Shown piece by piece: positions 14,583 to 61,383 of a stretch of 64,000 bases of DNA. The DNA is from Clostridia bacterium. GTDB taxonomy: Bacteria > Bacillota > Clostridia > Oscillospirales > CAG-272. The position numbers and the translations under genes were made by a program. The stretch spans positions 27,145 to 91,144 of the forward strand of contig JAFUQP010000019.1 in assembly GCA_017472305.1 (NCBI GenBank). Direction: 5' to 3'. Below the pieces are notes generated by a model. That model saw only the letters and a list, made by a program, of their open reading frames with translations. It ran no database searches and was not told the DNA's origin. Within the stretch, counting starts at the first letter, position 1. Each line of letters opens with the position of its first letter.

Positions 14583-14611
14583 TTGACTTTCCTTTTTTGC
14601 GCGTGTATAAT
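14583..14611 (+). promoter_or_regulatory. Sigma-A promoter of operon A
   Basis: TTGACT at 14583-14588, a 17-bp spacer, TATAAT at 14606-14611. The leader to the ATG at 14757 is about 140 nt, long enough for regulation, but I see no known riboswitch in it. Confidence 0.85.
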
Positions 14612-14756
14612 ATATTTGCACATATATCAAATTCGTCTTATATATTTTTATTTCGGATTGTATTAAATTGATAATTGTGTCAAGGTTGATACAATCATTT
14701 ATAGTATTTGTTAAAAATTATACTTTCGTATTATTTCTATGGAAAGGAATAGTAAT

Positions 14757-17700
14757 ATGAAACGAAAATTCTCTTGGCTTATAACATTACTCATAGCGCT
14801 CTGTCTGACCCTTGCCTCGTGCCAGGTCGGAGATGGCGGTGACTCGGGCTCCGGAGGCAGTGGCTCGGGTGACTCCTCAGGAGATTCAGGCAACTCGGGC
14901 GGCGCGTCGGGTGATTCGGGCACATCGGGCTCGGGAAACTCAGGCTCCGACACAGCCACGGGGGACTACATATTCAAGTCGGGTAGCACGCTTAACATTG
15001 TATGCGCTTCATCGGGCGAGGCGGTAACGGCTCTCGCAGCCGAGCTCCGCGAGCTCGGCATTACGGTCAGCGTCGTCGGTACTGCTACATCTCCTGCCGA
15101 CCACGAGATTATAATAGGTCAGTCAAGCCGAGAGGGCTCCGCGGCAGCCTATCGCAGGCTCTCGAGAGTGGAGCTTTCGGACGACCTTCACGTCGGCTAC
15201 GTTATTTACTCCACGGGCACCTCGCTCGCCGTAGCCTACCACGAGGATAAATTCGACCTTGAGGCGGCAAAGAATACCGCTATCGCTTACATAAGAGAAA
15301 ATCTTCTCGGCAGCAGCACCCTCGCCCCCGGAAAGGGCACTGTTTGCTCGGAGCAAACCACCCCCATAGATTACCAGGCGGCAATTGACGAGCTTGAACG
15401 CGCCCAAAAATGGGTTTCCTTCGAGGAAAAAATAGAAAAAATCAGCCCCGATAACGCACCTGAAATCGTCGAGGCGGTCAAAAACTACTACGAATGGGTT
15501 TGCACCCCCGACGTAATCTCCTGGTTTGCAAACCTCTACGACCCCGCGATAGGCGGCTACTACTACTCGAACTCGGCACGCGACAACGTCGGCTATCTTC
15601 CCGATGCCGAAAGCACCTCTCAGGCGCTCGGTCTGTGGGAGAAGTTTGGCGTACCGAGCCCCTACTCCGAGATTCCCGAGTGGATGCGACTTCAAATGAT
15701 AGCCTTCCTTAAGGGACTGCAGGACCCTAAGACGGGTTATTTCTATCACCCGCAGTGGACAAAGGAGGAGGTTGACAGCCATCTCTCTCGCCGCGCCCGC
15801 GACCTTTCAAAATCCGTAAGCACGCTTCGCGCGCTCGGCTCTGCCCCGACCTACGACACACCCGAGGGTGACAAGGGCGACGGAATTCTCGCCGACGGCA
15901 CACCCGTCACAGGCGGTGAAGCCTCTGCCGTTTCGGCAAAGCTCACGTCAAGGCTCGGCTCCTCGGCATACGGCGCGGCATCGCGCGTGGTTGCGGTTGC
16001 CTCCAGCGTTGCAATTCCCTCTCATATGGTTGACGACGTAGCCTTCAAGGCATATCTTGCAGAATGCGAGGCGGCAAACGCCATTCCCGTAGGTCAGTCG
16101 GGACACCGCTCCTTCTACGCGATAGGAAACGAGATAGGCTCGCAGATTTCGCAGATAAAGAAGCGCGACGCCGACCTTAAGGCGGCAGGCGCTAACTACT
16201 CACTCGGCATGATACTCTACGAGTGGTATAACGAGCATCAGAACAAGGAAACAGGACTTTGGGACGAGGGTGTAAACTACGACGCGACAAACGCGCTCCT
16301 TAAGATATGCGGCACCTACACCGAGCTTGGCAAGCTCTTCCCCAACGCAGACCTTGCTATAAGCTCCTGCATCGAGATGCTCTCCTCCCCCGCCCCCGTA
16401 GAGGCTACGGTTTACGTTTACAACATCTGGATGGCTCTTGACAATATCTTCAAGAACCTCTCGTCAAGCTTTGCCCAGGGCGACCCGAAGAACGCGCAGC
16501 TTGTCGCGGATTCGCGCGCTAAGCTCTTTGAGTCTGCTCCCTCAACTATTGAAATATCGGCAAGAAAGCAGCTGACCTTCAAGAAGAACGACGGCTCCTT
16601 CTCATACATGCCTAATGAAACGGCAACGACCAGCCAGGGTATGAGAGTCGCCGTACCGAGAACGAACGAGGGCGACATCAACGCAACCACCATAGCCATG
16701 GGCGGTACTATAGGCAACTGCCTTGACGCGCTCGGGCTTTCGGGCGCTGCTCCGAGCTACTTCACAAGAGCCGATATGTACTACTACATTTACCTTCTCG
16801 AGGGACTCGGCCCCGTAATCAAGGACGAGTCGGAAACGGTAATAGACTATCTAACCTTTGACGACGACACAGTCGGCAACGCTCCCACGGGTTCGATTCT
16901 CTCCAAGGAAGAGGGCAAGACCGGACTCGGCACGCTCACCGTCGTTGAAGACAAATACGGTGAGACACAGGGCAACCTCGCGGCAGAGTTCACCACCGTC
17001 AGTAAGTCAAGCGACACCTTGAGGCTCAACTCGCAGTCGGGCTCTCTCACCGCGTCCTGCTTCGTTTTCGAGGCTGATATTAATATGGTAGAGAGCGACG
17101 AGGCGTACGTTATGCAGCTTCTTCTTCAGCCCCAGACCTATATGCTCGGTCTTAAGGTTTCGAACGGCAGAGTCGGACTGCTTGAGTCGTCCTCTGCAAC
17201 CTGGAAGTACGCAAAGGAGGTTGACCTCGGCGTATCGGCAGCCCTCGGCGAGTGGTTCAACGTAAGAGTTGAATACTACGTCGGTGACCGCGATTCGGTA
17301 AGAATTATGGTCTACTTCAACGGCGAGCTTATAGCAATCACCGACAACTACTACGACCCTAAGGGCGAGAAGCTCTCGGGATTAGGCACTCCATCGGAGT
17401 CCTTCGACTACGTATCGATTATCGGTATGAATGACTATAACTTCACGGTTCTTCTTGACAACCTTGCAGCTTACAAGACGAATGCGTCCTATAAGACGCC
17501 CCCGATAGACGAGCTGCCCTTCATTAATATAGACCCGCCCGAAAGAGGCGAGCTGGTTCACACCTTCGACAGCTCCGATTCTCTTGAAATAAATCAGAAT
17601 AACGCGCTAGAGAGCCCCGAGATTGCGACAAACCCCGAAACCTCGAGTAATTCCCTGAAGCTTGTCGGCACAGGCAAGGACAAGGTCAAAAACGAGGAGG

Positions 17701-19745
17701 GCAAGGACGTAGACCCCACGCCTTCAAGCGTCTTTATCCCGATTAACGTAAGAGGCCCCGGGGCAAGGACTATCGTCCTCGAGAGCGACGTAAAGATTGT
17801 AGCAGACAGCTCGGTTACGGCGCTTCGCATCTACATTCGAGAGAACAACACGGCAAGAAACGATATAGTCTGCTTTGACCTGAAGGTCGAGAAGGCGGCA
17901 GACGGCACCTTCATCAGAGTTCACGATGCTCCAAACGGCAGCCAGGCGGCGGCGTTCGAGGGAATAAGAGTCCCGATAGAGAACAGCTTCAGGCTTCGCC
18001 TCGAGTATTACGAGGAAGAGCTTACCACGCTTATCTACGTCAACGGCAAGCTCCTCGGTGCGAGCGGAACAATCTGCAACTATGCCGACAAGTATACGGC
18101 AGGACTGCTTGAAATCACGGGTGTGACAAAGCAGAACGGCTACGAAGCCTACCTCGATAACCTTATCTTCGAGCGCACGAAAGGCTCCTTCAAGACAGCA
18201 ACCGAACCGCCCCTTCCCGAGGTTAACCACGACTTCTCGAAGAACGACACAGGCATCACCCTCTCGGGCGGCGCAAAGCTCGAGCGCGAGATGGCAAAGC
18301 TTTCTAAAGAGGGCGCAGCTCTCTCGCTTAATTCCGAAACGAGAGGCGACGTTTACACCGCGACCTCGTTCAGAACCTTTATGAAGCTTGGCACAGGCAC
18401 GCTCGGCACCCACCGCTTCACCCTTCTCTCAGACACCGATGAGGCAATAACCTCTTTCGAGCTTGACAGAAGCAAGAAGGCACTCACCCTTCGCGAGTAT
18501 TACGCCGGCGGCATAGGAAGCGATATGTTCCATACCGACCTTACCGCAGGCGAGGGAGAATTGTCCTTCAATTACTACCACGACAGAAAAATCACTACGA
18601 TTTACCTTGACGGAGTGCTGATAGGCATCAACACTCTGACCTACTCCTACGAAAACCAGAGCCTCATTCCCACAAAGCTGAAAATTGAGCAGGTCGGTGG
18701 CTCGGGAGCCGTGTATTTCGACAACATAGTGCTTGAAAAGTCACTTATTGTTTACAAAAAGTCGAAGGTTGAAGGCGTTATCACCCCGAGTGAGAACGAT
18801 TGGGACTTCGAGAATTCCTACCGCGATATGCTCCCGCAGGGCGTTGTTACAGACCTCTCCTCGACGGGCGGTCAGTTTGACGTCAAGGGCGTAGAGATAG
18901 GTAAGGACGAGGACGGCAACCCGATATACAGTAAATTCGTTACTATGACCACAACGATAGGCGGTAACGATTATATCGAGTTCAATATGAAGGAGGCAAA
19001 TAAGCTTTCGGGCAAGGTTGTCAGTGTGTTCGAGGCTGATATGCTCTTCGACGGCAATCCTTCGTCAAGCACAACCACCGTTGAGCTTTACCTTAAGGAC
19101 GGTGCAAGCGGAAATTCCGCTTGGCGACTTCTCCTCCAGTTCAACGATGCCGAAAGCTCGGGCAAGAACAAGGGCAGGCTTCATATCAGCGACTGGATGA
19201 ACAGCAAGGGCACAATCGGCGCAGAATTTGCCGACGAAGGAACGCTCATAAAGCTCCGCATTGAATATGCAGAGGCCGAGGACGGCAGTATGTTCCTTAA
19301 CGTATTTATTAACGGAAAATACGTGGCAACAAGCACCAACCCCTATTCGCTGACCGCGGTTTACTCGCCCGAGAGTATAACTAAGGTACGCTTCTACGCT
19401 ACCAGCGCGGCAGTCGGAACTATCTTTCTTGACAACGTAAAGCTCTACCACGCAACCGAGCTAACCTCGACTGAAAACGAGGACGAGGGCGGCGAAGGCG
19501 GAAACACCGGTGAAGGCGGAAACACCGGCGAGGGCGGTAACACCGGCGAAGGCGGAAACACCGGCGAGGGTGGCAATACCGGCGAAAGCGGCAACACCGG
19601 CGAAGGCGGCACACCCGAGGAGCCTATAGTACCCGAGGAGCCTGTGCTTCCCGAGGGTGACGGAAGCTTCGACAATATCGGAGAAATCCCCGAGGAGCCC
19701 GACGACGCGCCTATATACGACGGCAGCGGCTGGACAAAGCCTTAA
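14757..19745 (+). CDS. Operon A giant surface lipoprotein with SNSARD and LamG-like domains
   Basis: 1662 residues from ATG 14757, preceded by GGAAAGGA. Lipobox LASC (Cys22), then a Gly/Ser/Asp linker to about residue 65. Residues about 70-165 resemble the small N-terminal alpha/beta domain of some glycosidases (HEIIIGQS...GYVIYS). Residues about 200-680 form the SNSARD domain: YYYSNSARDNVGY, FYHPQW, YVYNIW, TSQG, GDINATTI. Then come about four concanavalin/LamG-like beta domains, seven GEGGNT-type repeats, and a tail ending in YDGSGWTKP. No sortase motif, so it is held by its lipid. It shares its core with the gene after it and with both SNSARD genes of operon B. Carbohydrate binding or processing is plausible but unproven. 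Confidence 0.7.
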   Translation: MKRKFSWLITLLIALCLTLASCQVGDGGDSGSGGSGSGDSSGDSGNSGGASGDSGTSGSGNSGSDTATGDYIFKSGSTLNIVCASSGEAVTALAAELRELGITVSVVGTATSPADHEIIIGQSSREGSAAAYRRLSRVELSDDLHVGYVIYSTGTSLAVAYHEDKFDLEAAKNTAIAYIRENLLGSSTLAPGKGTVCSEQTTPIDYQAAIDELERAQKWVSFEEKIEKISPDNAPEIVEAVKNYYEWVCTPDVISWFANLYDPAIGGYYYSNSARDNVGYLPDAESTSQALGLWEKFGVPSPYSEIPEWMRLQMIAFLKGLQDPKTGYFYHPQWTKEEVDSHLSRRARDLSKSVSTLRALGSAPTYDTPEGDKGDGILADGTPVTGGEASAVSAKLTSRLGSSAYGAASRVVAVASSVAIPSHMVDDVAFKAYLAECEAANAIPVGQSGHRSFYAIGNEIGSQISQIKKRDADLKAAGANYSLGMILYEWYNEHQNKETGLWDEGVNYDATNALLKICGTYTELGKLFPNADLAISSCIEMLSSPAPVEATVYVYNIWMALDNIFKNLSSSFAQGDPKNAQLVADSRAKLFESAPSTIEISARKQLTFKKNDGSFSYMPNETATTSQGMRVAVPRTNEGDINATTIAMGGTIGNCLDALGLSGAAPSYFTRADMYYYIYLLEGLGPVIKDESETVIDYLTFDDDTVGNAPTGSILSKEEGKTGLGTLTVVEDKYGETQGNLAAEFTTVSKSSDTLRLNSQSGSLTASCFVFEADINMVESDEAYVMQLLLQPQTYMLGLKVSNGRVGLLESSSATWKYAKEVDLGVSAALGEWFNVRVEYYVGDRDSVRIMVYFNGELIAITDNYYDPKGEKLSGLGTPSESFDYVSIIGMNDYNFTVLLDNLAAYKTNASYKTPPIDELPFINIDPPERGELVHTFDSSDSLEINQNNALESPEIATNPETSSNSLKLVGTGKDKVKNEEGKDVDPTPSSVFIPINVRGPGARTIVLESDVKIVADSSVTALRIYIRENNTARNDIVCFDLKVEKAADGTFIRVHDAPNGSQAAAFEGIRVPIENSFRLRLEYYEEELTTLIYVNGKLLGASGTICNYADKYTAGLLEITGVTKQNGYEAYLDNLIFERTKGSFKTATEPPLPEVNHDFSKNDTGITLSGGAKLEREMAKLSKEGAALSLNSETRGDVYTATSFRTFMKLGTGTLGTHRFTLLSDTDEAITSFELDRSKKALTLREYYAGGIGSDMFHTDLTAGEGELSFNYYHDRKITTIYLDGVLIGINTLTYSYENQSLIPTKLKIEQVGGSGAVYFDNIVLEKSLIVYKKSKVEGVITPSENDWDFENSYRDMLPQGVVTDLSSTGGQFDVKGVEIGKDEDGNPIYSKFVTMTTTIGGNDYIEFNMKEANKLSGKVVSVFEADMLFDGNPSSSTTTVELYLKDGASGNSAWRLLLQFNDAESSGKNKGRLHISDWMNSKGTIGAEFADEGTLIKLRIEYAEAEDGSMFLNVFINGKYVATSTNPYSLTAVYSPESITKVRFYATSAAVGTIFLDNVKLYHATELTSTENEDEGGEGGNTGEGGNTGEGGNTGEGGNTGEGGNTGESGNTGEGGTPEEPIVPEEPVLPEGDGSFDNIGEIPEEPDDAPIYDGSGWTKP
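19491..19616 (+). repeat. In-frame tandem repeat, 18 bp x 7
   Basis: Seven units coding GEGGNT (one GESGNT, last GEGGTP) near the C-terminus of the operon A lipoprotein. Units differ mainly at third codon positions, so the repeat is kept at protein level. It probably forms a flexible stalk, here placed before the C-terminal tail. Confidence 0.85.
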
Positions 19746-19904
19746 CGGAAGCCACTTGGTGCTTTGGCACGCAAAAAGCCAATTGGCATAAGGCTAGTAC
19801 AGAACGCCCTGCCAAGTCTCACAAGTAAAAGAGGCTGTCCCGAATAAAGACTAAGGTCAGCCTCACAAAAATATTATTTTCCAAAACCCGAAAGGACAAA
19901 AACA

Positions 19905-21182
19905 ATGGACACGCGCGAAATGCAATGGGAAAGGCTCGCAAAGGAGGCGACACGCCTCGGCGGCGACGGAAACGCAATCGTAGATGCTTACAGGGAGCTA
20001 TACTCGGTACACAGCGAGAAAATCTGCTCCTGGCTCGGTGCGCTCTTTGAGCCCGAGATTGGTGGCTTCTACTACTCAAACTCCGCAAGGGATAACGAGT
20101 ACGTGGAGATTGGTGGCGAGAAGCATTACTTCCTTCCCGACATTGAGTCTACAAACCAGGCGACCAATATGCTGCTCAGCACGGGTATGCTAGAGAGCTG
20201 TATGGAGCTTCCCGAATGGATGCGAAAAAAGATTGTTAGCTTTACCTCTTCTCTCCTCTCCCCCGAGGACGGCTACATCTACCACCCGCAATGGGGCAAA
20301 AACATAAGGCTTTCAAGGCGCGGCAGGGACCTCAACTGGGCTATAGAGATGCAGGGCAAGTTCGATTTCAAGCTCCCCTACCCCACGGCAATTGAGAGGC
20401 TTCGCGAAAGCGGAGATAACCCCGACAAGAAGGCGGAAATAATGGAGAATATGCCCGAGCACCTTCACTCAAAGGAAGCCTTCCTCGAGTACCTCAACTC
20501 CCTCGATTGGGAGAACAAGGCATATCCCTCGGGCAACACCGTAACGGCACAGGGCACGCAGATTGTTGCGGCAGGGCTTGCCGACGTGGCGGTTGATTTC
20601 CTCAACTCGATACAGAGGCCCGAAAGCGGCAGCTGGGGCAAGTACGACGGCTACGAGGCTGTTAACGGCATACTCAAGATAACCGGCGTATACCAGCAGG
20701 CAAAGAGAGCAATTCCCAATGCACTTAACACGGCGATGACTGCTATGGACTGCCTCAACCTTGACGTTGAGTGCGAGGCTGTCGTCTGGCAGTATAACGC
20801 GTGGTACTCCATAAGAAATATAACCGATAACCTCAGACGTTTCGGCGGTGAGGCAGGAAAAAGACAGGCGGCAGAGATTGTCGCTGAGTGCTTAAGGCGC
20901 GCGCCCGAGGCTATTCGCTCCTCGGCAAAGAAGTGTCTGCCCTTCCTCTGCGAGGACGGTGCGTACTCCTACACCCCCGGCTTCTCGTCCTCGACCTCGC
21001 AGGCAGCGAGAGTTTCGCTCGGACTTAAGGAAGGCGACGTCAACGCGACTGTTATCAACTGCACGGGCATTATCCACAACTCACTGAAGGCGCTTGACCT
21101 TGAAGAAAGCTTCGTTCCCCTCTTCGGAAGAAGCGGCTACGAGAAGTTCCTCGCAGGCGTGGAAAGCGTCAGAAACAAGTGA
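19905..21182 (+). CDS. Operon A cytoplasmic SNSARD-domain protein
   Basis: 425 residues with no signal peptide or membrane helix, so probably cytoplasmic. It is the minimal SNSARD domain: GGFYYSNSARD at 53-63, YHPQWG and SRRGRDLNWA near 126-145, a NGILK segment near 250, WQYNAW near 290, AYSYTP...TSQA near 350, and GDVNAT near 380. The spacing of aromatic-rich helices suggests an alpha/alpha toroid as in terpene cyclases, LanC and several lyases, but no known catalytic set is seen. GAAAGG precedes the ATG. Encoding it between the exported paralogue and the small peptide suggests a maturation role inside the cell; this is inference. Confidence 0.7.
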   Translation: MDTREMQWERLAKEATRLGGDGNAIVDAYRELYSVHSEKICSWLGALFEPEIGGFYYSNSARDNEYVEIGGEKHYFLPDIESTNQATNMLLSTGMLESCMELPEWMRKKIVSFTSSLLSPEDGYIYHPQWGKNIRLSRRGRDLNWAIEMQGKFDFKLPYPTAIERLRESGDNPDKKAEIMENMPEHLHSKEAFLEYLNSLDWENKAYPSGNTVTAQGTQIVAAGLADVAVDFLNSIQRPESGSWGKYDGYEAVNGILKITGVYQQAKRAIPNALNTAMTAMDCLNLDVECEAVVWQYNAWYSIRNITDNLRRFGGEAGKRQAAEIVAECLRRAPEAIRSSAKKCLPFLCEDGAYSYTPGFSSSTSQAARVSLGLKEGDVNATVINCTGIIHNSLKALDLEESFVPLFGRSGYEKFLAGVESVRNK

Positions 21183-21251
21183 TTTTGTAAACTATACCTT
21201 ACATTAAGCGCACTTTTATTAACATAAACCTCAGAAAGAAAGGAGAACAGT

Positions 21252-21422
21252 ATGAGCGAAAAATCGAAAAGACTCCCCTACAGAGAGCCAAAGGTAACCC
21301 TCATTACAATTGACTCCCTCGACGTAATCAGAACCTCGCCCATTGGCGGCGGCGACGATGACACAGGCACTCTCGGCGGCTCAGGCGGCGGTGGCGGCTG
21401 GACTGGAAGCGGAGCTTATTAG
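21252..21422 (+). CDS. Operon A 56-aa peptide with DS-x-DVI-x-TSP core
   Basis: A small gene with an excellent site (AAAGGAG, 7 nt before ATG). Product: a basic start (MSEKSKRLPY), a middle VTLITIDSLDVIRTSP, then an Asp/Gly-rich tail ending GGWTGSGAY. No signal peptide, no Cys. A second copy in operon B (55311-55448) shares the core: V-x-L-x-x-x-DS-x-DVI-x-TSP. Conservation of core, place and spacing in two operons supports a real gene. It could be a precursor peptide, a signal, or a subunit. My recollection, unverified, is that short proteins with a DVI-x-TS core recur in gut Clostridia. Confidence 0.8.
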   Translation: MSEKSKRLPYREPKVTLITIDSLDVIRTSPIGGGDDDTGTLGGSGGGGGWTGSGAY

Positions 21423-21515: not shown

Positions 21516-23078
21516 ATGAAACAGAGAAAAACCTCAAAGCTTATTATTCTCGCACTTTCTCTCGCGCTTCTTATCGGCTCGGCTGTCGGAATTGCAGTAA
21601 GCGCAAACGAAGCTACAGCCCCCACTATTCTTTCTAAAAACGTTGCGGCAGACGGCAACTTCTGCCTTATGTTCGCAGTTGACCCTGCAACCTGTGCAGG
21701 CGAGGACGTAACCCTTACGGTTTATAACACCAACCCCGAAGGCCTTGAAGGTGATGCTCTCGCAAGCGCTACCGTGCAGACCATCACAAAGCCTGTGACC
21801 GACACCCAGCCCGAGGACCTTGACGGCAATCCGGAAACCGCAAAAACCGACGTTCTCGTGTTCACCACCAAGGGCGTTGCCGCAAAGGACATCGCCGACG
21901 AGTGGTACATAACCGTTGAGTCGGGCGACCTTTCCACCACCGAAAAGTACAGTGTAAGAGAGTACGCCTTCGAGCGTCTTTACAAGGACCAGACCATTCT
22001 CGCGGCAGGCGGCACCTACGAGTACCGTCAGAAGCAGTTCTACCTCTCTATCCTCGCAGTAGGCTCTACCGCGCAGGACCTTCTCGTTAACGCAGAGCTT
22101 GAAGCAGGCGCTACTCCCGAAAGACTTGCAAACGAGTACTCCTACGCAGCAATCACGAAGGGCAGTTTCTCAGGCGACCTTACAGGCACCTACGGCTTCG
22201 TTGAAATCGGCGACAGCCTTACCCTCACCGAGGACGCAGGCTTCACCGACCCCTCTTGGAAGGTTTACACCTACGGCACAAATGGCGCGCTTGATACAGT
22301 TGAAACCGTAGCACTCGGCTCTACTATCGAAATCACAGGCAACACCGTCGTAGTTCCCGGCTGGGCAGAAGGCAAGACCCCCGGTAAGTACTTTGGCGAC
22401 CTCGGTGACGATGCTCTTGCATTTGACGGCTCGGAGTCTGTACCCAATGCAATTTCTCTTAATACGACAACCACGCCTAAAGACGGATACCACAAAATCA
22501 TTGCAGATACCGGCAGAGGAAACGTTCTTGTTGTAGGCAAAACCGATTACACTTGGGTATCCGGCGACGTAAACTCTCCCGCGTTAACAGCAACAATTGT
22601 CGACAAGGCTAACGAAAACGGAAATACGCTTGTTATCGAGATGGATATCAAGATTGACCTTACTTATACTAACTATAATTCTGCTAGCGAGTATTCATCC
22701 AGAACCACGGCAATGAATAGGCTAGACATATTTAATGGAAGCGGAACAAGCATTTCAAATTGGAATCACAATTGTGTAGAAACAAGTGGTACTCTTTCTG
22801 CAGATTCCCCTTTAGGTGGCGATATATGGAATATTAATGGTTCTGGGGAGTTCGAATACGGCAAATGGTATAATTTATGCATTGAAATATTAGAGAAAGA
22901 TACAACTTATAATAAAGTTACAATCTACATTGACGGAGAATATTTTACAAACTTCAATATAGGAGCATCAACGGGTTACGATATTTATACAGCAACCTCG
23001 TTCAAGTTCACTTGGCAGCCCAGAACTGTTGCAGAAACCCACATTGATAACCTCTTTGTTGGTATCGTTGAGAAATAA
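21516..23078 (+). CDS. Operon A secreted protein with C-terminal LamG-like domain
   Basis: 520 residues. Classical signal peptide (hydrophobic core LIILALSLALLIGSAVGIAV, cleavage likely after VSA near residue 31), no lipobox. Residues about 35-190 form a beta-rich domain shared with the operon B homologue (conserved MFAVD or MYAVD start, later AQ-x-LL). The last about 190 residues are LamG/concanavalin-like (TLVIEMDIKID, VTIYIDGEYF, ETHIDNLFVG). From about 22600 the DNA becomes much more AT-rich with different codon choice, as if the last domain has a separate origin. AAAGGAAAAG precedes the ATG. Likely a surface or matrix binding protein. Confidence 0.72.
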   Translation: MKQRKTSKLIILALSLALLIGSAVGIAVSANEATAPTILSKNVAADGNFCLMFAVDPATCAGEDVTLTVYNTNPEGLEGDALASATVQTITKPVTDTQPEDLDGNPETAKTDVLVFTTKGVAAKDIADEWYITVESGDLSTTEKYSVREYAFERLYKDQTILAAGGTYEYRQKQFYLSILAVGSTAQDLLVNAELEAGATPERLANEYSYAAITKGSFSGDLTGTYGFVEIGDSLTLTEDAGFTDPSWKVYTYGTNGALDTVETVALGSTIEITGNTVVVPGWAEGKTPGKYFGDLGDDALAFDGSESVPNAISLNTTTTPKDGYHKIIADTGRGNVLVVGKTDYTWVSGDVNSPALTATIVDKANENGNTLVIEMDIKIDLTYTNYNSASEYSSRTTAMNRLDIFNGSGTSISNWNHNCVETSGTLSADSPLGGDIWNINGSGEFEYGKWYNLCIEILEKDTTYNKVTIYIDGEYFTNFNIGASTGYDIYTATSFKFTWQPRTVAETHIDNLFVGIVEK

Positions 23079-23093: not shown

Positions 23094-23125
23094 GAAACGG
23101 CGGCGATTGCCGCCGTTTCTATTTT
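23094..23125 (+). terminator. Intrinsic terminator of operon A
   Basis: Perfect 11-bp stem GAAACGGCGGC / GCCGCCGTTTC with loop GATT, followed by TATTTT, 15 nt after the stop of the secreted LamG protein. It closes the four-gene operon. Confidence 0.9.
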
Positions 23126-53768: not shown

Positions 53769-53782
53769 TATTCAGTCGGAAA

Positions 53783-55213
53783 TTACTCGAAGTGAACGTA
53801 TACGTTGTCCATATAGAGAACGTCTTTATATGTTGCATTATCGGTTACGTACTGAACTCTGCACATATAGTCACCCGTCGTTTCACCATAAAATGTTCCG
53901 GAGTGCATTCCGCTCGAAGCACCTGCTGTATACTGAAGATTTCCATTAACATAGAACTTGAGTTCGTTTGTATCAAGATCAATTTCTGCTCTTATATTAT
54001 ACCAAAGATGCTTATTGAAGGTTACTCCTGCGAAATCAAGAGTGTCCTCGTCAATGTTTTTGTAGACTAACTGAACGACTCTGGGGGTACCCGATGTTCT
54101 TCCACCATCAAAAATAACCTTAAAGCGTGTTCCGTAGGTGCTTTCCGTGCTGTTTACTGTATCAAACTTAACATCAAACTCAACTACAGCCTTGGTCTTG
54201 TCACCGTTCTTTTCATTAGCAAGTTCTTTCCAATGAAGCTCGTATAAGCTTCCCGCAGTGTTATCAACAGCAAGAGCTCCGTCAGAAATTGTTCCGCTTC
54301 CCCAATTATCATTGTACGCGGTACCTGTTGTCGAGCAGTCAAATCTCTGACCTTCCTTGGTGGCGTCGTTGTAGTAAATGCCGTTTCCGCGGTAGTCGGT
54401 AGGCATTACAGACGCGTCAACGGGAGTAAATATGAGGTTTCCGTTTACGGGAATTGTATCGGTAAGCGAGTAAATCATCGGTGCGCCGGACTGAACCGCA
54501 AAGTCATCGTCAACGTACACACCTACTACCGACCAGCCGACGATATTTTCGTCAGAACCCGTGTAAGCAACCTGAATTTCCGTGCCGCGCTTAACCGTTC
54601 CTGCGGTGAAGCCCATATAGTTACCGTCGGTTGCGGTAACGTAGCAGTAATCGTCGGGCGACTCTCCTGTCGCGTAGTTAAGCACCTGCTGTGCGTACTC
54701 GCCGGTGTAGTAGAGGTGGCTGTAGAACGCCTTCATAGCAGCGGTGTTCTCGGAGTCATACTTGAACTGTCTTTCGTATATGTACTCAAGGGCGCTGTAT
54801 TTATCAACTGCGCTTTCTGCCGCAACGCTTCCGTCAGCATTGAAGATAACTGCCTGTGCGAAGATAACCATAGTCATATGCTTCAGGGGAATTTCGGGGG
54901 AATAGAACACCTTCGCGCCGAGAACCGCCTCGTCGGTGCTTATTTCATAATCCGTGACCGTGTACTCGGTAACGCCCTCGGCTCCGGGATAGCCGTCATA
55001 AATACGCATTGCAACGTACTGTCCGTCGGTAAGCTCGGAATTATCAACCGCATACATTATCGAAAGCTCGCCACCGTAATAAAGGTTTCTGCCGACGATT
55101 CCAACCGTCTGACCGTCGCCCTCTGCTCCTGCAATAAAGCCTACAGCACCGCCCACAAGAAGCAGGCACGCGATAAGAAATGCAATAAGGCTTGTTTTTC
55201 TGTTGTTTTTCAT
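53783..55213 (-). CDS. Operon B secreted protein with C-terminal LamG-like domain
   Basis: 476 residues. Signal peptide (SLIAFLIACLLLVGGAVGFIAGA), no lipobox. N-terminal domain homologous to the operon A protein (GGELSIMYAVD; KYSALEYIYERQ; AQQVLNY), a short linker domain (YMGFTAGTVKRGTEI), then a LamG-like end (AVVEFDVKFDTV, NELKFYVNGNL, DNVYVHFE). As in operon A, the LamG part (53783-54330) is more AT-rich than the rest of the gene. Last gene of operon B. Confidence 0.72.
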   Translation of the reverse strand: MKNNRKTSLIAFLIACLLLVGGAVGFIAGAEGDGQTVGIVGRNLYYGGELSIMYAVDNSELTDGQYVAMRIYDGYPGAEGVTEYTVTDYEISTDEAVLGAKVFYSPEIPLKHMTMVIFAQAVIFNADGSVAAESAVDKYSALEYIYERQFKYDSENTAAMKAFYSHLYYTGEYAQQVLNYATGESPDDYCYVTATDGNYMGFTAGTVKRGTEIQVAYTGSDENIVGWSVVGVYVDDDFAVQSGAPMIYSLTDTIPVNGNLIFTPVDASVMPTDYRGNGIYYNDATKEGQRFDCSTTGTAYNDNWGSGTISDGALAVDNTAGSLYELHWKELANEKNGDKTKAVVEFDVKFDTVNSTESTYGTRFKVIFDGGRTSGTPRVVQLVYKNIDEDTLDFAGVTFNKHLWYNIRAEIDLDTNELKFYVNGNLQYTAGASSGMHSGTFYGETTGDYMCRVQYVTDNATYKDVLYMDNVYVHFE

Positions 55214-55310
55214 TTTTCATTCCTCTTCAAATGTGTTTTCGGGCACATGCCCGTGGGATTGCTTTGTGCTATTTGATTAAGTCAAGCTATAAAGTCCTTT
55301 TCCAAGCAGA

Positions 55311-55448
55311 TTAAACTCTCGGTACCCATGTGCTTGGTGAATGGTTGTTTCCGTCGCCAAATTCTGCGTCCACCGGGGAGGTAGCTATTACGTCAGTACT
55401 GTCAAAGGCAACGAGCACTAGATTTGCGGGATTGTATTTTTCCTTCAC
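55311..55448 (-). CDS. Operon B 45-aa peptide with DS-x-DVI-x-TSP core
   Basis: Start GTG at 55448 with a perfect AAAGGAGG site 7 nt upstream. Product: basic start VKEKYNPANL, core VLVAFDSTDVIATSP, acidic middle, tail DGNNHSPSTWVPRV. No signal peptide or Cys. Homologue of the operon A peptide (21252-21422): same place between the cytoplasmic SNSARD gene and the secreted LamG gene, with similar gaps (52 and 97 nt versus 69 and 93). Function unknown. Confidence 0.78.
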   Translation of the reverse strand: MKEKYNPANLVLVAFDSTDVIATSPVDAEFGDGNNHSPSTWVPRV

Positions 55449-55500
55449 CGCTGTCCCTCCTTTCCCAAAATATAAAGTATTATTTACAAAATTGCCTTAA

Positions 55501-57516
55501 TTAATCCTGTTTGACAAGCATAGGGCCGTCAACAAACGCGGCATATATATTATCGAGAGAAACGAACGCTCCGTCAAAGCCCGCCGAGAGAGAAAGATTT
55601 ACGTTCTTTTTATCAGACGACGACGCCGTATCAAGGTTGATAAGCGTTGCAAAGAGCTTGCCGTCTATATAGAGCTTAATCTCCTTTTCAAGGCTGACGT
55701 AGTAGTACTCAAGGCGAAGCTTATAGTTCTTGTTCTGTTCAAGATACGCGCCGCTTACGGGTGTACCGTCCTTGTCGGCAAAGTATATCTCCCCTGCCTC
55801 GCCCGCGTAAAGCCTGACGTCCTTGCGCTCGTCGCCGCTTATCATTCTGATAGTTAAGAAGTTGCCCGAGCGTCCCGAAAGACCGCCTGCAAGGAAATCG
55901 CACTCAAAGACCTGATAGCCGTTGTCGTGCCTTCTCGAATTAACTATCTCAAAGCGGATATTCTCGTCGCAGTCTGCGGTGTTTTGTCTGTCAAACTGCT
56001 TTCTGAATACAACCCTGCCGCCCTTGTCCAGCTCGACTGTCGCGTTGGCTATTCTGTTGATATCCGGCCATACGGCAATCAGCGGCTTCGGCTCACCGTT
56101 TCTATAGGTGAAGAGGTCGCCGATATGCCTTTGCTTTTTCGTTATGGGCTTCGCGTTGGCTATCAGCTTTAAGAAATACTCTCCGTCAAGCGGTGAGTAG
56201 GGCTTGATAAAGGGAATTCCTATAGCCGCGCAGAGCGAGCCCGGGATACCCATAGTCGAAATGGTCGTTGCGTTTACGTCGCTCTCGGCAATGCTCACGC
56301 AGCCTACGGGAGCTCCCTGAGAGCTGTTACAGGGCGCAACCTTGAAGTAGGAGAAGCCGCCGTCAGCTCGCTTGTGCGTTGAGAGCTTATCTATCGTCGC
56401 CCGTATCATAAGCGTAATATCGGGCGCGATTATTTTTCTGATTTCGGCACTCTCCTCGGGGTTGAACGCACGGAGCATATCGCCGATTGTTCTCCAGGTA
56501 TTGAATATTGAGCAAACGTGCGTATCTGCGTTGGCATCGTAGAGCCTTGCTACCGATACGACGCTTCTTACCGCGGCGTGCGCGTTGGGAAGCGGCACCT
56601 TCGCCTTAACGTAGGACATCGACACCTTCATAAGTCCGTTCATATTGCGGTAGGCGTTGTCGCTCTTTTCCCACAACCCGGTTTCGGGGTCCTGAATTCC
56701 GCTAAGAAAGTCTATAAGCGTTTCAATGTATCCGCCCTTAGCAGGACGACTTACGTCATAGTCGGCTTCCCTTCTGCCCGCACACTCCTTGAGCCACATC
56801 TTCCTGTCGGCATTCATAATCTGCGAGAACTGCGACTCAATCTCGTTGCCCGCCAGATACGAGTTATGGGGAATATCGAGATTTACAAGGAATTTCTTGA
56901 AATTATCAATACTTCTGAGAAATGGTGGAAGCGACTGTGACGAACCCTTTGCAGAGTCCTTCTTCATAGAGGACAGAGGCGCGCCGAGCGAGCCCTTAAC
57001 TCCCGAGGGTGTATCGTAAAGAGGCTTAACCTCAAAGTTTGAGAGAAGATAGGTTGCCCAGTTAAGGTCCCTTCCGCGTCGGGAGTTGGTAATGCCCTTT
57101 CCCCACTGCGGATGGTAGAAGAAGCCGTCCTCGGGATTTTGCATTCCGTTAACGAACTCAACTATTTTCGCCTTGGTTTCTGCCGAAAGCGCGTTTGCAT
57201 AATTCTTGATATTCGGCTTGTCGGGATTCTTATATCCGTCCATAGCACCCGACCAGGATATGTTGTCGAGCACCTGAAGGGTTGACTCGAGGTCGGGGAA
57301 ATATCCCGCTGTATCGCGGGCGGAATTTGAGAAGTAGAAGCCACCCATATCCTTGTCCCAGAGGTTAGCCATCCATACGTATATGCCCTCGTCGTATAGC
57401 TTATAGAGGTCACGTAACGCGTCTGTGGCTTCCTTGCCAATAACCTCCTCAGCACGCGCGAATCCCGCCTCGCGCTGAGCTTCTCTTTCCTGTTTTCTTG
57501 CTTCTAAACTATCCAT
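55501..57516 (-). CDS. Operon B cytoplasmic SNSARD protein with LamG-like end
   Basis: 671 residues with no signal peptide. SNSARD core: GGFYFSNSARD at 58-68, FFYHPQWG, SRRGRDLNWA, NGLMK, CSIFNTW, GGFSYF, SDVNATTI. Unlike the operon A homologue it carries an added beta domain at the C-terminus (about 480-671), of the LamG type found in the lipoproteins. No clear ribosome site before the ATG, 33 nt after the lipoprotein stop, so it may depend on coupling. Role inferred as for the operon A homologue. Confidence 0.7.
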   Translation of the reverse strand: MDSLEARKQEREAQREAGFARAEEVIGKEATDALRDLYKLYDEGIYVWMANLWDKDMGGFYFSNSARDTAGYFPDLESTLQVLDNISWSGAMDGYKNPDKPNIKNYANALSAETKAKIVEFVNGMQNPEDGFFYHPQWGKGITNSRRGRDLNWATYLLSNFEVKPLYDTPSGVKGSLGAPLSSMKKDSAKGSSQSLPPFLRSIDNFKKFLVNLDIPHNSYLAGNEIESQFSQIMNADRKMWLKECAGRREADYDVSRPAKGGYIETLIDFLSGIQDPETGLWEKSDNAYRNMNGLMKVSMSYVKAKVPLPNAHAAVRSVVSVARLYDANADTHVCSIFNTWRTIGDMLRAFNPEESAEIRKIIAPDITLMIRATIDKLSTHKRADGGFSYFKVAPCNSSQGAPVGCVSIAESDVNATTISTMGIPGSLCAAIGIPFIKPYSPLDGEYFLKLIANAKPITKKQRHIGDLFTYRNGEPKPLIAVWPDINRIANATVELDKGGRVVFRKQFDRQNTADCDENIRFEIVNSRRHDNGYQVFECDFLAGGLSGRSGNFLTIRMISGDERKDVRLYAGEAGEIYFADKDGTPVSGAYLEQNKNYKLRLEYYYVSLEKEIKLYIDGKLFATLINLDTASSSDKKNVNLSLSAGFDGAFVSLDNIYAAFVDGPMLVKQD

Positions 57517-57549
57517 AATGCTTGAAAATGTAATGTTTGGTTTTCAAAA

Positions 57550-60500
57550 TCAGCCGATTATCACCCAGCCGTCGGCAATATGGTTTCCGTCGTCCTGGCT
57601 GCTATCCGGGCTAACGAATCCCGGCTCAAAGGGTGCTGACGTATCCTCGGTGGGAGTATCATCTCCGCCGCCTCCGCCGCCCGTCGGCGGGTCGGTGTTA
57701 TCTCCACTGTCCTCGCCGCCTGTCGGTGGGTCGGTGTTATCTCCGCTGCCTTCGCCGCCCGTCGGTGGGTCTGTGTTATCTCCGCTGCCCTCGCCGCCTG
57801 TCGGTGGGTCGGTGTTATCTCCGCTGCCCTCGCCGCCCGTCGGTGGCTCTGTGCTTCCGCTCTCGTCCTTCGGATAGAGAGGAACGCTCTCGGCAAAGGC
57901 GTATTCTATCGAGTCGTAACCGCAGAACACGTCGTCGATAAGCATATACACGCCCTCAAAGTTCTTATGAAGGTATACGAAAGCGCGCTTGTTGCTTGTA
58001 GTAATGCTGCCCTGCACAAGACCCGTAAGCTCGGTCACAAAGCTGTTGTTTATAAAGAGCTTAACCGGTGCGTTATCTTCCTCGTAATAATACTCAATGC
58101 GGATTTTGTAGGTTCTGTTTTCCTTAAGATACGGAGTACCTGCTATGGCTATGCCGTTCTCGTCGATAAAGTATATCTGTCCGTCAGAGGTCGCAGACAT
58201 ACCGATAAGAACCTTTTTCATACCGCCGTAGAGCATAAACTTACCGAAGCTTCCCGTCGTGCCGCCGAGGCCGCCGACCTCGAGGTCAAGCTCGAATATC
58301 TGGCAGGGATTTTCCGCGGGAACGTGGCTTGAGGCATATCCGAGGGTGAAGTACTCCTCGGAGTCGTCGGGGTGAACCGTATCACCTATCGCCTTCTTCT
58401 TTGTGAACTTCAGCCTTGAATTTTCCTTTTCAATAGTCGCGTCTGCTATCTTGTTGTCAGGCCATATCTGAATAGCGGGCACCTCGCTGTCGATATCGTA
58501 GTAATCGTAGATATTACCCGTCGATACCTGAGAGTTGTAGTAGCCCTTCTGTGGGTCGTATATGCCCTTCACCACGTCAGACTCCTCTTTATATTCACGC
58601 TGAATATAACCCATAAACAGGTTATCAATCTTGACGTACGCGCCGTCATAGCCCTGGTGCATATAGAGGAAGCCTCTCGTATGTCCCGACTGATTTACAA
58701 TCTCAAGACCCGTAAGCGAAACCGCATATTCGTTGTTTACGAAGAGCTTGACGACTCCGCCGTCAACGTTGTAGTGGAACTCAAAGCGGAGCTTGTAGAA
58801 TTTGTCGCAGTCGAGGTATGGCGTTGATTTATAGGCTCTGCCTGCCGAGTTTACGAAGCAAATCTTGCCTGCGGAATTAACCTTCAGATTTATAGCAACA
58901 CGAAGTCCGCCGCCGTCTATTCTGATTCTCGAGAAGCTGCCCTTCTTGCCTTCAAGTCCACCCGCGAGGAAGTCAAGCTCGAGGCACTGCACGCCGCTCA
59001 TATTCTTCGGGGGCTTACTCGTGCAGGGAACCGAAATATATTCCTCACTGTCGGCAGGGTGAACCTCGTCGCCCACCGCCTGCGCCTTCGTGAACACGAG
59101 CACACCGTCCTCGAGCGCTACGGTCGCGTCGGGCTTCTTATTTTCGGGCCAGATGTTTATCGGGGGAAGCTCCGAGGAGTCCTCAAAGCTATATCTGTTA
59201 CCCTCGAGATACGATGCGAAGAAGTCGCCCTCGGGAAGCTCGGGTATATCATCCTTAAGCGCTACGCCGAGGTTTGAAATAACGTCAACGAATCTGTCGC
59301 CGTCGGCGGGTATGTAGGGATATATAAAGCTCTCTCCCATGGCCGTGAATATCGCCGCGGATAGTCCAAGGCTTGCAATGCCCGCTGCGTTTACGTCACT
59401 CTCGGGCGTGAGAGCACAAGCTACGTCAGCACTCTGCGCCGTATTGCACGGTGTACTCTCGAAATACGAAAATCCGCCGCCCGGCTGATAGTGAATTGCA
59501 ATCTTCTCCACGGTTGCTGCGAGCATCTCGGGAGCGTGCTCAAGAAGCATTTCCTGCACCTTGTCCTTGGTCTCGGAATCAATAACCTCATAGAGATGTC
59601 CAAAGCTCTGCCAAGGATTGTATATCGAGCAAACGTGAGTATCGTGCTCGTCGTCCCTGTACTTTGTAACAGTAATAACGCTCTCGGCTGCCTCAAGTGC
59701 ATAGTCAAACTTAATACCGAACTTCTTATAGCAGCTCGTCGTTTTCATAAGACCGTTGACACCCTCGTAGGTAAGTCCGTCGTCCTCACCGTCCTTATCC
59801 TGACCCGGGCCTACCACCTGCCAGAAGCCGGTTTCGGGATTGATAAGCGAGTTCAGATAGTCACGGAACACCTCGATATATCCGCCTCTAGCAGGAGATT
59901 TTACACTGTATTGCTCCGCCTTTGCACCGGGGTTCTGCGATAACCAAAGCTTTTTGTCGAGCTCTATAATCTGCGGTGCCTGCGACTCTACCGCGTTTCC
60001 TGCGGTGTAGGAGTCATTCGGGAAGTCGAGCGACTTAAGATATTCAAGGAATGCCTCGGGACTCTTAAGGTAAGGCTTTGTTGCGGTCAGAACAACCTTT
60101 GACACGGCAAGAGCTGTGCCTCTTTTTGACACGGGAGTGGCGAGCCCTTCCCTTGAGCCCTTATAGCCGTTTTGAGTATCGTAATAGGGCTGAACGCCAA
60201 TCTCGCTTAGCATCATAGTAGCCCAGTTAAGGTCTCTGCCCTGTCTGCTTACGGTTATGTCGGTTCCCCACTGTGGGTGATAGAAGAAGCCGTCGTTCGG
60301 GCTCTGCATATTAAGTATGAAGCTTGCGAGAGCATCGCCAAGCTCGCCCTGCATAAAGACGCCATACGCCTTCTTGCCCGAGGGAATGTCGTAGTGCGAG
60401 AACGCGCCTGACCAGGATATGCTGTCGAGCACCTGATAGGTAGACTCGAGGTCGGGATAGTAGCCTATAGTATCTCTTGCAGAGTTTGAGAAATAGAAGC

Positions 60501-61293
60501 CGCCTATATCGGGGGCGTAGAGGTTAGCCATCCAGAGATACCAGTCGCTGCCGAACATTCTGTACAGGGCGCGCAGTCCGTCTGCAAGCTCAACTCCAAC
60601 CTTCTCCTCTAGCGCCTTGAACTTTACCTCTCTGTATTCGTTACGGATAGCCTCAATTCTCGTGTCTATACCGTAGGACTGTGAAGCGAGAATTCCACGC
60701 ATTACCGGAAGCTCTTCCTTCGCGCCGTACATTGAGAAGAACTCCGTCATAGCGTCGTCGTAGGCAAGAGCCGAGGAATACGCTATAGCAATGCTCGACG
60801 AATTCGCATAGATTACGTAGCCTGCGGTGTCACTGTTGTCAACGATTTCCTCAAGCTTACGGTACGCTGCCCTCGAGGCGGGGCGGTTCGGGTGATTGCC
60901 TATTATAATTTCCTTCTTGTCGCCCTTGTTTTCGGGGTCGCTGTATACGGGATACTTTCCGGTTATCTCATAGATGCGGCTGAACACCTCGTTTACGTCC
61001 CACTCGTAGCCTGAATCGTTCGAGCGGAGCAACGAAATCTCTGCACCCTCAAACCAGAAAAGCTCTCCTTCGGGCTCAGCGCTGTCCGAGCCGTCCTGAG
61101 TGCCGTCGCCCGTGCTATCGCCGCCGGAGCCTGCCTGTGAATTGTCGGAGCCGTTGCCGCTATTACCACCGTCTGAGGTGTCGGAATCGCCCGAGCCACC
61201 CGAGCCGATACTGCAGGAGACGAGCGTCAAAAGGCAAATCAATAATATCAAAATCGTTCTTGTTAAATTACCTAACATTCTTTTCCCTTCCAT
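57550..61293 (-). CDS. Operon B surface lipoprotein with SNSARD and LamG-like domains
   Basis: 1247 residues from ATG 61293 (GGAGGAG 2-4 nt upstream; ATG 61278 is an alternative with GAAGGG before it). Lipobox LVSC, Gly/Ser/Asp linker, an N-terminal domain with EIIIGNHP...GYVIYA as in operon A, SNSARD core (GGFYFSNSARDTIGY, YHPQWG, SRQGRDLNWA, NGLMK, CSIYNPW, GGFSYF, SDVNAA), two LamG-like domains (KLFVNNEYAVSLTG, KLFINNSFVTELTG), five PPTGGEGSGDNT-type repeats, tail DGNHIADGWVIIG. Same plan as the operon A lipoprotein, with fewer LamG units. Confidence 0.72.
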   Translation of the reverse strand: MEGKRMLGNLTRTILILLICLLTLVSCSIGSGGSGDSDTSDGGNSGNGSDNSQAGSGGDSTGDGTQDGSDSAEPEGELFWFEGAEISLLRSNDSGYEWDVNEVFSRIYEITGKYPVYSDPENKGDKKEIIIGNHPNRPASRAAYRKLEEIVDNSDTAGYVIYANSSSIAIAYSSALAYDDAMTEFFSMYGAKEELPVMRGILASQSYGIDTRIEAIRNEYREVKFKALEEKVGVELADGLRALYRMFGSDWYLWMANLYAPDIGGFYFSNSARDTIGYYPDLESTYQVLDSISWSGAFSHYDIPSGKKAYGVFMQGELGDALASFILNMQSPNDGFFYHPQWGTDITVSRQGRDLNWATMMLSEIGVQPYYDTQNGYKGSREGLATPVSKRGTALAVSKVVLTATKPYLKSPEAFLEYLKSLDFPNDSYTAGNAVESQAPQIIELDKKLWLSQNPGAKAEQYSVKSPARGGYIEVFRDYLNSLINPETGFWQVVGPGQDKDGEDDGLTYEGVNGLMKTTSCYKKFGIKFDYALEAAESVITVTKYRDDEHDTHVCSIYNPWQSFGHLYEVIDSETKDKVQEMLLEHAPEMLAATVEKIAIHYQPGGGFSYFESTPCNTAQSADVACALTPESDVNAAGIASLGLSAAIFTAMGESFIYPYIPADGDRFVDVISNLGVALKDDIPELPEGDFFASYLEGNRYSFEDSSELPPINIWPENKKPDATVALEDGVLVFTKAQAVGDEVHPADSEEYISVPCTSKPPKNMSGVQCLELDFLAGGLEGKKGSFSRIRIDGGGLRVAINLKVNSAGKICFVNSAGRAYKSTPYLDCDKFYKLRFEFHYNVDGGVVKLFVNNEYAVSLTGLEIVNQSGHTRGFLYMHQGYDGAYVKIDNLFMGYIQREYKEESDVVKGIYDPQKGYYNSQVSTGNIYDYYDIDSEVPAIQIWPDNKIADATIEKENSRLKFTKKKAIGDTVHPDDSEEYFTLGYASSHVPAENPCQIFELDLEVGGLGGTTGSFGKFMLYGGMKKVLIGMSATSDGQIYFIDENGIAIAGTPYLKENRTYKIRIEYYYEEDNAPVKLFINNSFVTELTGLVQGSITTSNKRAFVYLHKNFEGVYMLIDDVFCGYDSIEYAFAESVPLYPKDESGSTEPPTGGEGSGDNTDPPTGGEGSGDNTDPPTGGEGSGDNTDPPTGGEDSGDNTDPPTGGGGGGDDTPTEDTSAPFEPGFVSPDSSQDDGNHIADGWVIIG
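57655..57849 (-). repeat. In-frame tandem repeat, 39 bp x 5
   Basis: Five 13-residue units, DPPTGGEGSGDNT or variants, before the C-terminal tail of the operon B lipoprotein. It is the positional counterpart of the GEGGNT repeat in operon A but unrelated in unit length, so each stalk has expanded on its own. Confidence 0.88.
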
Positions 61294-61354
61294 AGCTCCT
61301 CCTTTATTTCTCACGCCGATAATGAAAACGGCTGCATTTTCTTTCGTCAATATT

Positions 61355-61383
61355 ATGATATCATTATATCGGGGGCAATTCAA
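61355..61383 (-). promoter_or_regulatory. Probable sigma-A promoter of operon B
   Basis: On the minus strand TTGAAT (61383-61378), 17-bp spacer, TATCAT (61360-61355), about 60 nt before the start. A palindrome ATGATATCAT overlaps the -10, a possible operator. Confidence 0.55.

Follow-up and report, generated by a model that had tools for sequence, protein, structure and literature searches.

Organization of operons A and B

The 64,000-nucleotide stretch of DNA analysed here (hereafter, the window) is part of contig JAFUQP010000019.1 (positions 27,145 to 91,144, forward strand; assembly GCA_017472305.1) of a Clostridia bacterium, a gut bacterium that is kin to strains from ruminants. It carries two operons, A on the plus strand and B on the minus strand, each of which encodes a lipoprotein and a cytoplasmic protein of a family that is here called SNSARD, a short peptide, and a secreted protein. 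The peptide resembles the precursors of linear polyphosphorylated peptides (LPPs), which are ribosomally synthesized and post-translationally modified peptides (RiPPs). What is new is that LPP-like precursors are found across many surface operons, and that the C-terminus of the peptide recurs, operon by operon, on the SNSARD lipoprotein. The features of the two operons are listed below; genes were called by a longest-open-reading-frame (ORF) script with approximate start positions, and the promoter and terminator scan covered operon A.

14583..14611, plus strand: promoter-like site 5' of operon A, TTGACT-17-TATAAT (a consensus match only)
14757..19745, plus strand: SNSARD lipoprotein A, with SNSARD domain, further repeats and an acidic linker; lipobox LASC, by sequence inspection
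19713..19742, plus strand: C-terminal tail of lipoprotein A, IYDGSGWTKP, of a type like the peptide tail; own peptide 6th of 25
19905..21182, plus strand: cytoplasmic SNSARD protein of operon A, 425 aa, no export signal
21252..21422, plus strand: LPP-like precursor peptide of operon A, 56 aa, tail ending GGGGGWTGSGAY
21516..23078, plus strand: secreted protein of operon A, 520 aa, of a family of its own
23094..23119, plus strand: terminator-like hairpin 3' of operon A
57550..61293, minus strand: SNSARD lipoprotein B, lipobox LVSC, C-terminal tail ending NHIADGWVIIG; own peptide 1st of 25
55501..57516, minus strand: cytoplasmic SNSARD protein of operon B, 671 aa; SNSARD domain, residues 24-452, plus an additional C-terminal region
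55311..55448, minus strand: LPP-like precursor peptide of operon B, 45 aa, tail ending GDGNNHSPSTWVPRV
53783..55213, minus strand: secreted protein of operon B, 476 aa

The SNSARD domain of lipoprotein A spans residues 222-687, numbered on the longer ORF 14739-19745. An earlier reading of this DNA from the sequence only (the sequence-only reading) had described two four-gene operons with the same order on opposite strands, and its coordinates and strands are borne out, as are, to the nucleotide, the gaps that flank the peptide gene (69/93 nt in operon A, 52/97 nt in operon B). It had also called the copies clearly diverged. Identity between A and B is indeed 32% for the SNSARD domain of the lipoprotein, 33% for the cytoplasmic protein, 31% for the peptide and 21% for the secreted protein, and values of 21-33%, part for part, indicate that the operons are old copies.

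Searches of Pfam and NCBIfam with the eight operon proteins of the window returned no significant match (the best, DUF5550 at E 0.021, is under its cut-off), and Pfam identified no known carbohydrate-binding domain among them. The label 'LamG-like', which the secreted protein had been given, is unsupported: Pfam returned nothing of LamG type up to E 10, the secreted family has no significant match in PDB, and we treat it as a family in its own right. That no described system has this make-up, as had also been stated, holds insofar as the four proteins are without significant Pfam or NCBIfam matches; it does not hold for the peptide, which groups with RiPPs first reported in 2026.

SNSARD operons across the genome

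The window's genome (2.03 Mb in 42 contigs, 86% complete) contains 66 stretches that match a cytoplasmic SNSARD query. In the window and 19 fetched stretches, on which the cluster counts rest, there are 43 SNSARD proteins in 20 clusters, 18 of which have all four parts, and the two-copy duplicated module that had been proposed is thereby ruled out. The gene map of stretch L055 shows no peptide or secreted protein, and in L057 a single exported SNSARD protein stands alone.

Conservation of gene order had been proposed as well, and it stands for one element only. The peptide gene is immediately 5' of the secreted gene in 17 of the 18 operons (a GH4 gene lies between them in the exception, L049), whereas the order of the other genes varies: the exact order lipoprotein-cytoplasmic-peptide-secreted is found in only 7 of the 18, and 2 more have it with an extra gene inserted. 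The secreted proteins of 16 of the 18 operons are recovered by phmmer as one family, those of L043 and L051 being assigned only by their position and a similar N-terminus. In Mantel tests across the 18 operons the two SNSARD parts correlate with each other (r 0.53, p 0.0016), the secreted protein correlates at most weakly with the lipoprotein (r 0.20, p 0.052), and the peptide tracks none of the other parts. Because only the two SNSARD parts co-vary, the module does not appear to have been simply copied as a block. Within one SNSARD operon (L045:13898-17872) the pair of peptide and secreted gene is tandemly duplicated, with near-identical cores ending TELGSSGNDPSAWL.

AraC-type regulators were found in the fetched stretches of at least 8 of the 18 operons (a lower bound from a single query), and three operons have glycosidase-type neighbours: GH92 near L050, GH4 near L049 and DUF4838 near L046. 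The target of the surface complexes is probably glycan-related. These neighbours also suit the alternative offered by the sequence-only reading, a machine that binds glycans and in which the peptide is an internal accessory that undergoes no maturation. We regard that machine as rather improbable, since none of the eight window proteins contains a known carbohydrate-binding domain, the secreted family is without a PDB match, and the RiPP-type leader of the peptides, their link to a PqqD cassette and the tail match described below would all be left unexplained.

The SNSARD family and its relatives

Our searches define SNSARD as a protein family with no significant match in Pfam or NCBIfam; PDB likewise gave no significant match, the top one being complement C4A (E 0.87, non-significant). 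The repeated DG-aromatic motifs are compatible with a possible alpha/alpha-toroid fold. In the literature we found no paper containing the strings SNSARD, DVITTSG, DIITTSG, DVIATSG or DVVTTSG.

A profile of 20 cytoplasmic SNSARD proteins matches 9 of 59 relatives at 1e-10, all of one genus, and 4 of 394 genomes across the order at 1e-5, one of these four being a partial and weak match; the window's genome is included in both counts. The named relatives (69 loci retained out of the best 80 of 101 confirmed matches) are metagenome-assembled Clostridia or Oscillospiraceae, with deer, goat, sheep or yak as the host where one is stated.

The idea that the four genes are firmly linked was checked in these relatives, where it is upheld in part. 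Considering the 30 unique complete short SNSARD genes that were retrieved with 8 kb on either side, we find the peptide, the secreted gene and a long SNSARD gene, all on one strand, near 18 of them; the remaining 12 have no peptide and no secreted gene. Since 18 have both and 12 have neither, the link between peptide and secreted gene is fixed, and SNSARD occurs without these two as well. When all 65 unique complete short SNSARD proteins are counted, 31 have the peptide, 34 the secreted gene and 28 all three partners.

Some SNSARD loci depart from this arrangement. A run of several SNSARD genes in L150 (genome G002), in which no peptide or secreted-family gene was detected, represents a form that is free of both tail and peptide. 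In another genus of the same family, a single SNSARD protein of 387 aa adjoins a DcuC-type transporter (L134:5703-6866, G356) and may be closest to the ancestral function. A hexapeptide acetyltransferase (L133:8064-9638, G346) has a C-terminal part with weak similarity to the SNSARD profile (E 4e-16 over 145 profile positions). Neither of these two distant relatives gives a function for SNSARD.

The precursor peptide family

A profile built from 17 peptides of the window's genome has 22 matches there, 19 within the 18 SNSARD operons and 3 elsewhere. Across the order it matches 40 of 197 genomes, which represent 32 of 111 genera. A broader profile has matches in 44 of the 69 genomes of the genus, up to a maximum of 32 in one genome (G430), and no SNSARD proteins were seen in 20 stretches from six peptide-bearing genomes of the genus. 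Peptide genes tend to accompany large exported proteins: 38 of 47 lie at most 300 nt from a same-strand gene, exported or cut by a contig end, that encodes 380 aa or more, 32 after that gene and 6 before it, where export was called by a simple hydrophobicity rule, contig-cut neighbours were counted as exported and near-identical peptides of one genome were included. As background, complete large exported genes (at least 380 aa) make up 57 of 353.

The peptides share a sequence pattern. Of 104 peptides found by profile, 96 fit Y/F...[DE][VI]xxxS with 19-21 residues from Y/F to S, a pattern that itself demands D/E and V/I and permits only these distances; at least one of the 8 that do not fit, in L064, has a distance of 18. 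The fitting peptides comprise 92 unique stretches, of which 87 have a distance of 19; the Ser is preceded by T in 66 and by A in 15, and the position at +3 from Y/F is P in 50 and A in 29. Tyr10, Asp24 and Ser29 of peptide A (Ser codon at 21336-21338) are invariant among the 17 aligned peptides of the window's genome. Pfam and NCBIfam scans of 30 peptides returned chance-level matches only.

Two members of the family that bear Cys, with the motifs DIICTSGCG and DVICTSGCG, directly adjoin radical SAM/SPASM proteins (L159:9336-10883 and L219:4873-6429) in genomes of two different families. These proteins might provide another way of maturing peptides with this type of leader, and their position beside the peptides also supports the identity of the latter as RiPP precursors.

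In G430 and G028 the peptide family is expanded (L194-L200, L202-L205), with near-identical cores (SPGTETTPKEDNDGIWDFDLG and close variants), whereas in the window's genome, conversely, the cores are diverse. Most of these peptides follow very large secreted proteins, often with AraC-type regulators adjacent, as judged by eye from the protein ends. A second peptide ORF in G012 (L136:13748-14445) has the same leader and a different C-terminus after DVITTS, apparently as a broken or shuffled copy.

A proposed maturation cassette elsewhere in the genome

LPPs are a RiPP family described by Popov et al. (2026; PMC13381572). According to that paper, LppK puts several phosphates on core Ser3, LppS (catalytic S29/H68/D93) cuts off the leader with the aid of the RiPP recognition element (RRE) LppB, the precursors follow the consensus YxxPxVLxHQxIxFETxxS with a Y-to-S distance of 18, the clusters are without a cyclase, and the biological role of LPPs is stated as unknown.

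In L169 and L170, two peptides lie upstream of genes for an HprK-like kinase, a PqqD protein and a signal-peptidase-like protease. Peptides and PqqD are associated well beyond these two loci. In the 197 genomes of the order minus the window's own, with PqqD matches in ORFs of at least 400 aa left out, a stand-alone PqqD (PF05402) is present in 34 of 39 genomes with the peptide and in 36 of 157 without it (Fisher 1.3e-13). Ten peptide-PqqD pairs, from nine genera and eight families, lie within 3.3 kb of each other, compared with 0.37 expected under the assumptions of 2-Mb genomes and even spacing, with positions transcribed by hand and kinship among genomes ignored. At these ten places there are 10 kinases, 8 proteases, 5 nucleotidyltransferases and 4 ABC exporters (L170, L214, L215, L220).

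In the genus of the window's genome PqqD is matched in 60 of 69 genomes, some of the matches being in long frames of another kind. Among 60 stretches inspected, many of which are truncated at a contig edge or were chosen for weaker PqqD matches, we count 39 with the kinase, 38 with the protease, 35 with PqqD, 22 with an ABC gene and 16 with the nucleotidyltransferase, and 20 in which kinase, PqqD and protease all occur. A single cassette is present in the window's genome, in stretch L176:

L176:8793-9551, minus strand: HprK-like kinase (ScmC and HprK-related models match weakly, below cut-off)
L176:8552-8809, minus strand: PqqD, a discrete RRE (PF05402, E 3.3e-14, above cut-off)
L176:8098-8568, minus strand: signal-peptidase-like protease of archaeal type, 156 aa (TIGR02228, E 1e-4, below cut-off)
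L176:6910-8094, minus strand: NTP_transf_5 nucleotidyltransferase (PF14907, E 3e-41)

Four related genomes with SNSARD have the same four cassette genes in the same order (L223-L226). Both enzymes keep the residues expected for catalysis: counted over complete ORFs at E <=1e-10, Ser28, His67 and Asp82 of the protease are kept in 38 of 38 complete homologues, and so, in 38 of 38, are the P-loop residues G113, G115, K116 and T118 of the kinase together with its His95 and Asp137. We assume that Asp82 is the equivalent of LppS D93. By analogy with LPPs we infer that the conserved Ser of the peptides corresponds to Ser3, which would place the end of the leader at DVI and the start of the core at xTS.

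Near cassettes or peptides we also noted six proteins with export-like signals (L159:11268-12038, L168:9576-10121, L169:5732-6166, L238:7544-8599, L241:10606-11715 and L253:7355-7801). They have a short acidic tail, of the type DKDGWITKWY, DEGWSGIY or ENELPDDDLN, and some have a long disordered linker; they may be anchored carriers of a tail, as the SNSARD lipoproteins are.

In many SNSARD operons the lipoprotein tail repeats the peptide tail

In many SNSARD operons the C-terminus of the lipoprotein repeats that of the operon's own peptide, a feature that the sequence-only reading had missed. Pairs of this kind include GGGYHAGAWS/GGGYHGGAWS (L056), GGNMDGSSWDEN/GGDMDGTSWDEN (L106) and GGWTNQKDW/GGWTNSNVW (L117). 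From 50 unique peptides we obtained 44 lipoprotein-peptide pairs, leaving out 5 without a complete lipoprotein and the truncated copy in L136; the two peptides of L045 share one lipoprotein, and some pairs come from orthologous operons. Tailed pairs, defined by a Trp in the last ten residues plus one hand-added pattern for L054, whose tail ends YYDEK, make up 25 of the 44. Their mean score is 40.3 against 24.2 (sd 1.4) in 20,000 permutations, with p 5e-5, the smallest value obtainable in this test, and the 17 operons of the window's genome taken alone also give p 5e-5. For 13 of the 25 tailed lipoproteins the own peptide is the best fit, its rank in the others being 2 to 20; at 20 residues it is 6th for lipoprotein A of the window and 1st of 25 for lipoprotein B. 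No signal was seen in two controls, one comparing the peptide leader with the lipoprotein tail and the other the lipoprotein stretch from 80 to 40 residues before its end with the tail.

One explanation of such a match is gene conversion between neighbouring genes, of which the repeated tail would be a functionless by-product. Of the 153 shared residues, 83 (0.54) are encoded by the same codon, somewhat over the 0.42 expected from codon usage alone, and there are a few young-looking pairs (L054 with 8 of 9 codons, L063 with 6 of 7). However, most of the shared residues show synonymous change near the level expected by chance, and we conclude that the tail match is mostly old and has been kept at the protein level. 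The match is moreover confined to the tail, the preceding stretch being without signal, and tail sharing recurs in other families (L221 and L217). Taken together, these points make gene conversion quite improbable as an explanation.

Outside SNSARD operons the signal is weaker: 42 peptides compared with their neighbours give a mean of 14.6 against 12.5 when permuted (p 8.5e-4). In L221, from another family, the tails AEGDNGTGWG/DEGDNGTGWG agree at 9 of the last 10 residues, the second partner being an exported protein with a long linker; L217 is a second clear case in another family. As a rule for the whole peptide family, the tail match is unsupported by these 2 clear cases in 42.

Interpretation

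We favour, with some reserve, the reading that A and B belong to a set of about 18 operons encoding cell-surface complexes, that their peptides are matured in trans as LPP-like RiPPs, and that peptide core and lipoprotein tail share a partner. Its basis is observed homology, gene linkage, co-occurrence, catalytic residues and tail matching.

Several of our findings weigh against it. The cassette of the window's genome is unlinked to every peptide of that genome, and no ABC exporter was seen beside it. Two further PqqD matches in this genome are below cut-off, and 2 kb separate one of the two from the SNSARD genes in L056. Across the order, 29 of the 39 peptide genomes have no peptide within 3.3 kb of PqqD and 5 of the 39 have no stand-alone PqqD match. 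The leaders found here do not conserve HQ and FET of the LPP consensus, and the usual Y-to-S distance is 19, compared with 18 in LPPs. Lipoproteins without the tail account for 19 of the 44 pairs; they have no match to the peptide over 20 or 30 residues, with a slight excess at 12 residues (p 0.014), and a clear neighbour match outside SNSARD operons is limited to the 2 of 42 peptides described above. The 12 short SNSARD genes of relatives that have neither peptide nor secreted gene belong here as well; because this weaker link concerns SNSARD, it leaves the kinship of the peptide with LPPs unaffected.

The missing linkage to the cassette, in the window's genome and in the 29 peptide genomes, would be accounted for if the peptide were an unmodified accessory or regulatory peptide of a surface operon, such as a chaperone or a sensor, and the PqqD cassette had other substrates; the 38 of 47 peptides adjoining a large exported or contig-cut gene would likewise suit an accessory role. 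Against this stand the ten tight peptide-PqqD linkages in nine genera and the co-occurrence at p 1.3e-13, the position of the Cys-bearing members beside radical SAM/SPASM proteins in different families, and the combination of a YxxP leader with a conserved Ser at nearly the distance given for LPPs (PMC13381572). On balance we think an unmodified peptide unlikely.

If maturation in trans is correct, events could unfold as follows, with modification, cleavage site, export and function of the peptide being what we infer from sequence. Each operon would make the SNSARD lipoprotein, the cytoplasmic SNSARD protein, the secreted companion and an LPP-like precursor. PqqD, from the single cassette elsewhere in the genome, would bind the YxxP leader of the precursor, the HprK-like kinase would phosphorylate the conserved Ser in D[VI][IV]x[TA]S, and the signal-peptidase-like protease would cut off the leader immediately before xTS. 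The nucleotidyltransferase might then decorate the product, which would be exported. Outside the cell, the core would act where the C-terminal tail of the lipoprotein acts, in many operons with a matched copy on that tail, so that free and tethered forms of one sequence could meet the same partner.

The arrangement suggests that one maturation cassette serves about 20 scattered precursors. More tentatively, it might represent a new kind of surface assembly, in which one recognition sequence is made in two versions, a free phosphorylated RiPP and the tail of an anchored lipoprotein, and these dock either to a common partner or to one another to give operon-specific complexes. If this were true, a cell could hold up to about 18 parallel complexes, all fed by one maturation cassette. 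LPP-like precursors are here tied gene by gene to large surface proteins. The tail match gives a first handle on the role of an LPP-type peptide, namely a partner that would bind both the free core and the lipoprotein tail. The interpretation offered by the sequence-only reading is thus partly supported: peptide maturation with surface display was the right direction, and the proposed machinery, the LPP-type cassette, lies outside the operon, elsewhere in the genome.

Comparison with known systems

Operons for carbohydrate use of the polysaccharide utilization locus (PUL) type combine a lipoprotein and a secreted protein with an AraC regulator and glycosidase neighbours. The SNSARD operons resemble them in having a lipoprotein and a secreted protein and, in some operons, an AraC regulator and glycosidase neighbours; they differ in that the window's proteins have no known carbohydrate-binding domain. 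Two Cys-bearing peptides adjoin radical SAM/SPASM proteins, as in the RiPP systems of TIGR04463 and PapB relatives, but the scores here are far under the cut-offs of those models.

Phosphorylated lasso peptides such as paeninodin and Bsf offer a closer comparison. Their clusters share with the present cassettes a PqqD-type RRE, an HprK-like kinase (with His, P-loop and Asp), a nucleotidyltransferase and a YxxPxL leader (PMC10368454, PMC7533575), and BsfK phosphorylates core Ser3 of the lasso precursor BsfA, which has such a leader (PMC10368454). The YxxPxL leader, the T-S near the start of the core and the PqqD, kinase and nucleotidyltransferase common to paeninodin-type clusters (PMC10368454, PMC7533575 and PMC13381572) could be taken to mean that the peptides are themselves lasso peptides. 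By contrast with lasso clusters, the B2 leader peptidase family (PF13471) has no match in 16 of 17 genomes, the window's included, and the Asn-synthase/macrolactam cyclase family (PF00733) has none near a cassette in the 17; G043 alone has a PF00733 match and a cassette on one contig, 305 kb apart, and in five genomes of the same genus PF00733 gives partial matches only, of 38-56 residues. A lasso identity is largely refuted by these results, and we consider it very improbable.

The resemblance to LPP clusters (PMC13381572) extends over the gene set: an HprK-like kinase, a discrete PqqD-type RRE, an archaeal-type signal-peptidase-like Ser/His protease, an NTP transferase and no cyclase, with a precursor that has a YxxP leader and a Ser at nearly equal distance. 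An MsbA-like ABC exporter accompanies some LPP clusters, and an ABC exporter is seen here at 4 of the 10 peptide-PqqD places, though not beside the cassette of the window's genome. The differences lie in the precursors and their surroundings. According to the same paper, LPP clusters carry 1-3 precursors, have been studied in Bacilli and are often near capsule loci. Here, the window's genome has 22 peptide matches, all away from the cassette, and G430 has 32; the peptides mostly adjoin genes for large exported proteins, and in many SNSARD operons the core is matched to the tail of a lipoprotein. Judged by its predicted genes, the cassette is the published LPP cassette, and what is new here are the precursors distributed over many surface operons and the match between peptide and lipoprotein tails.

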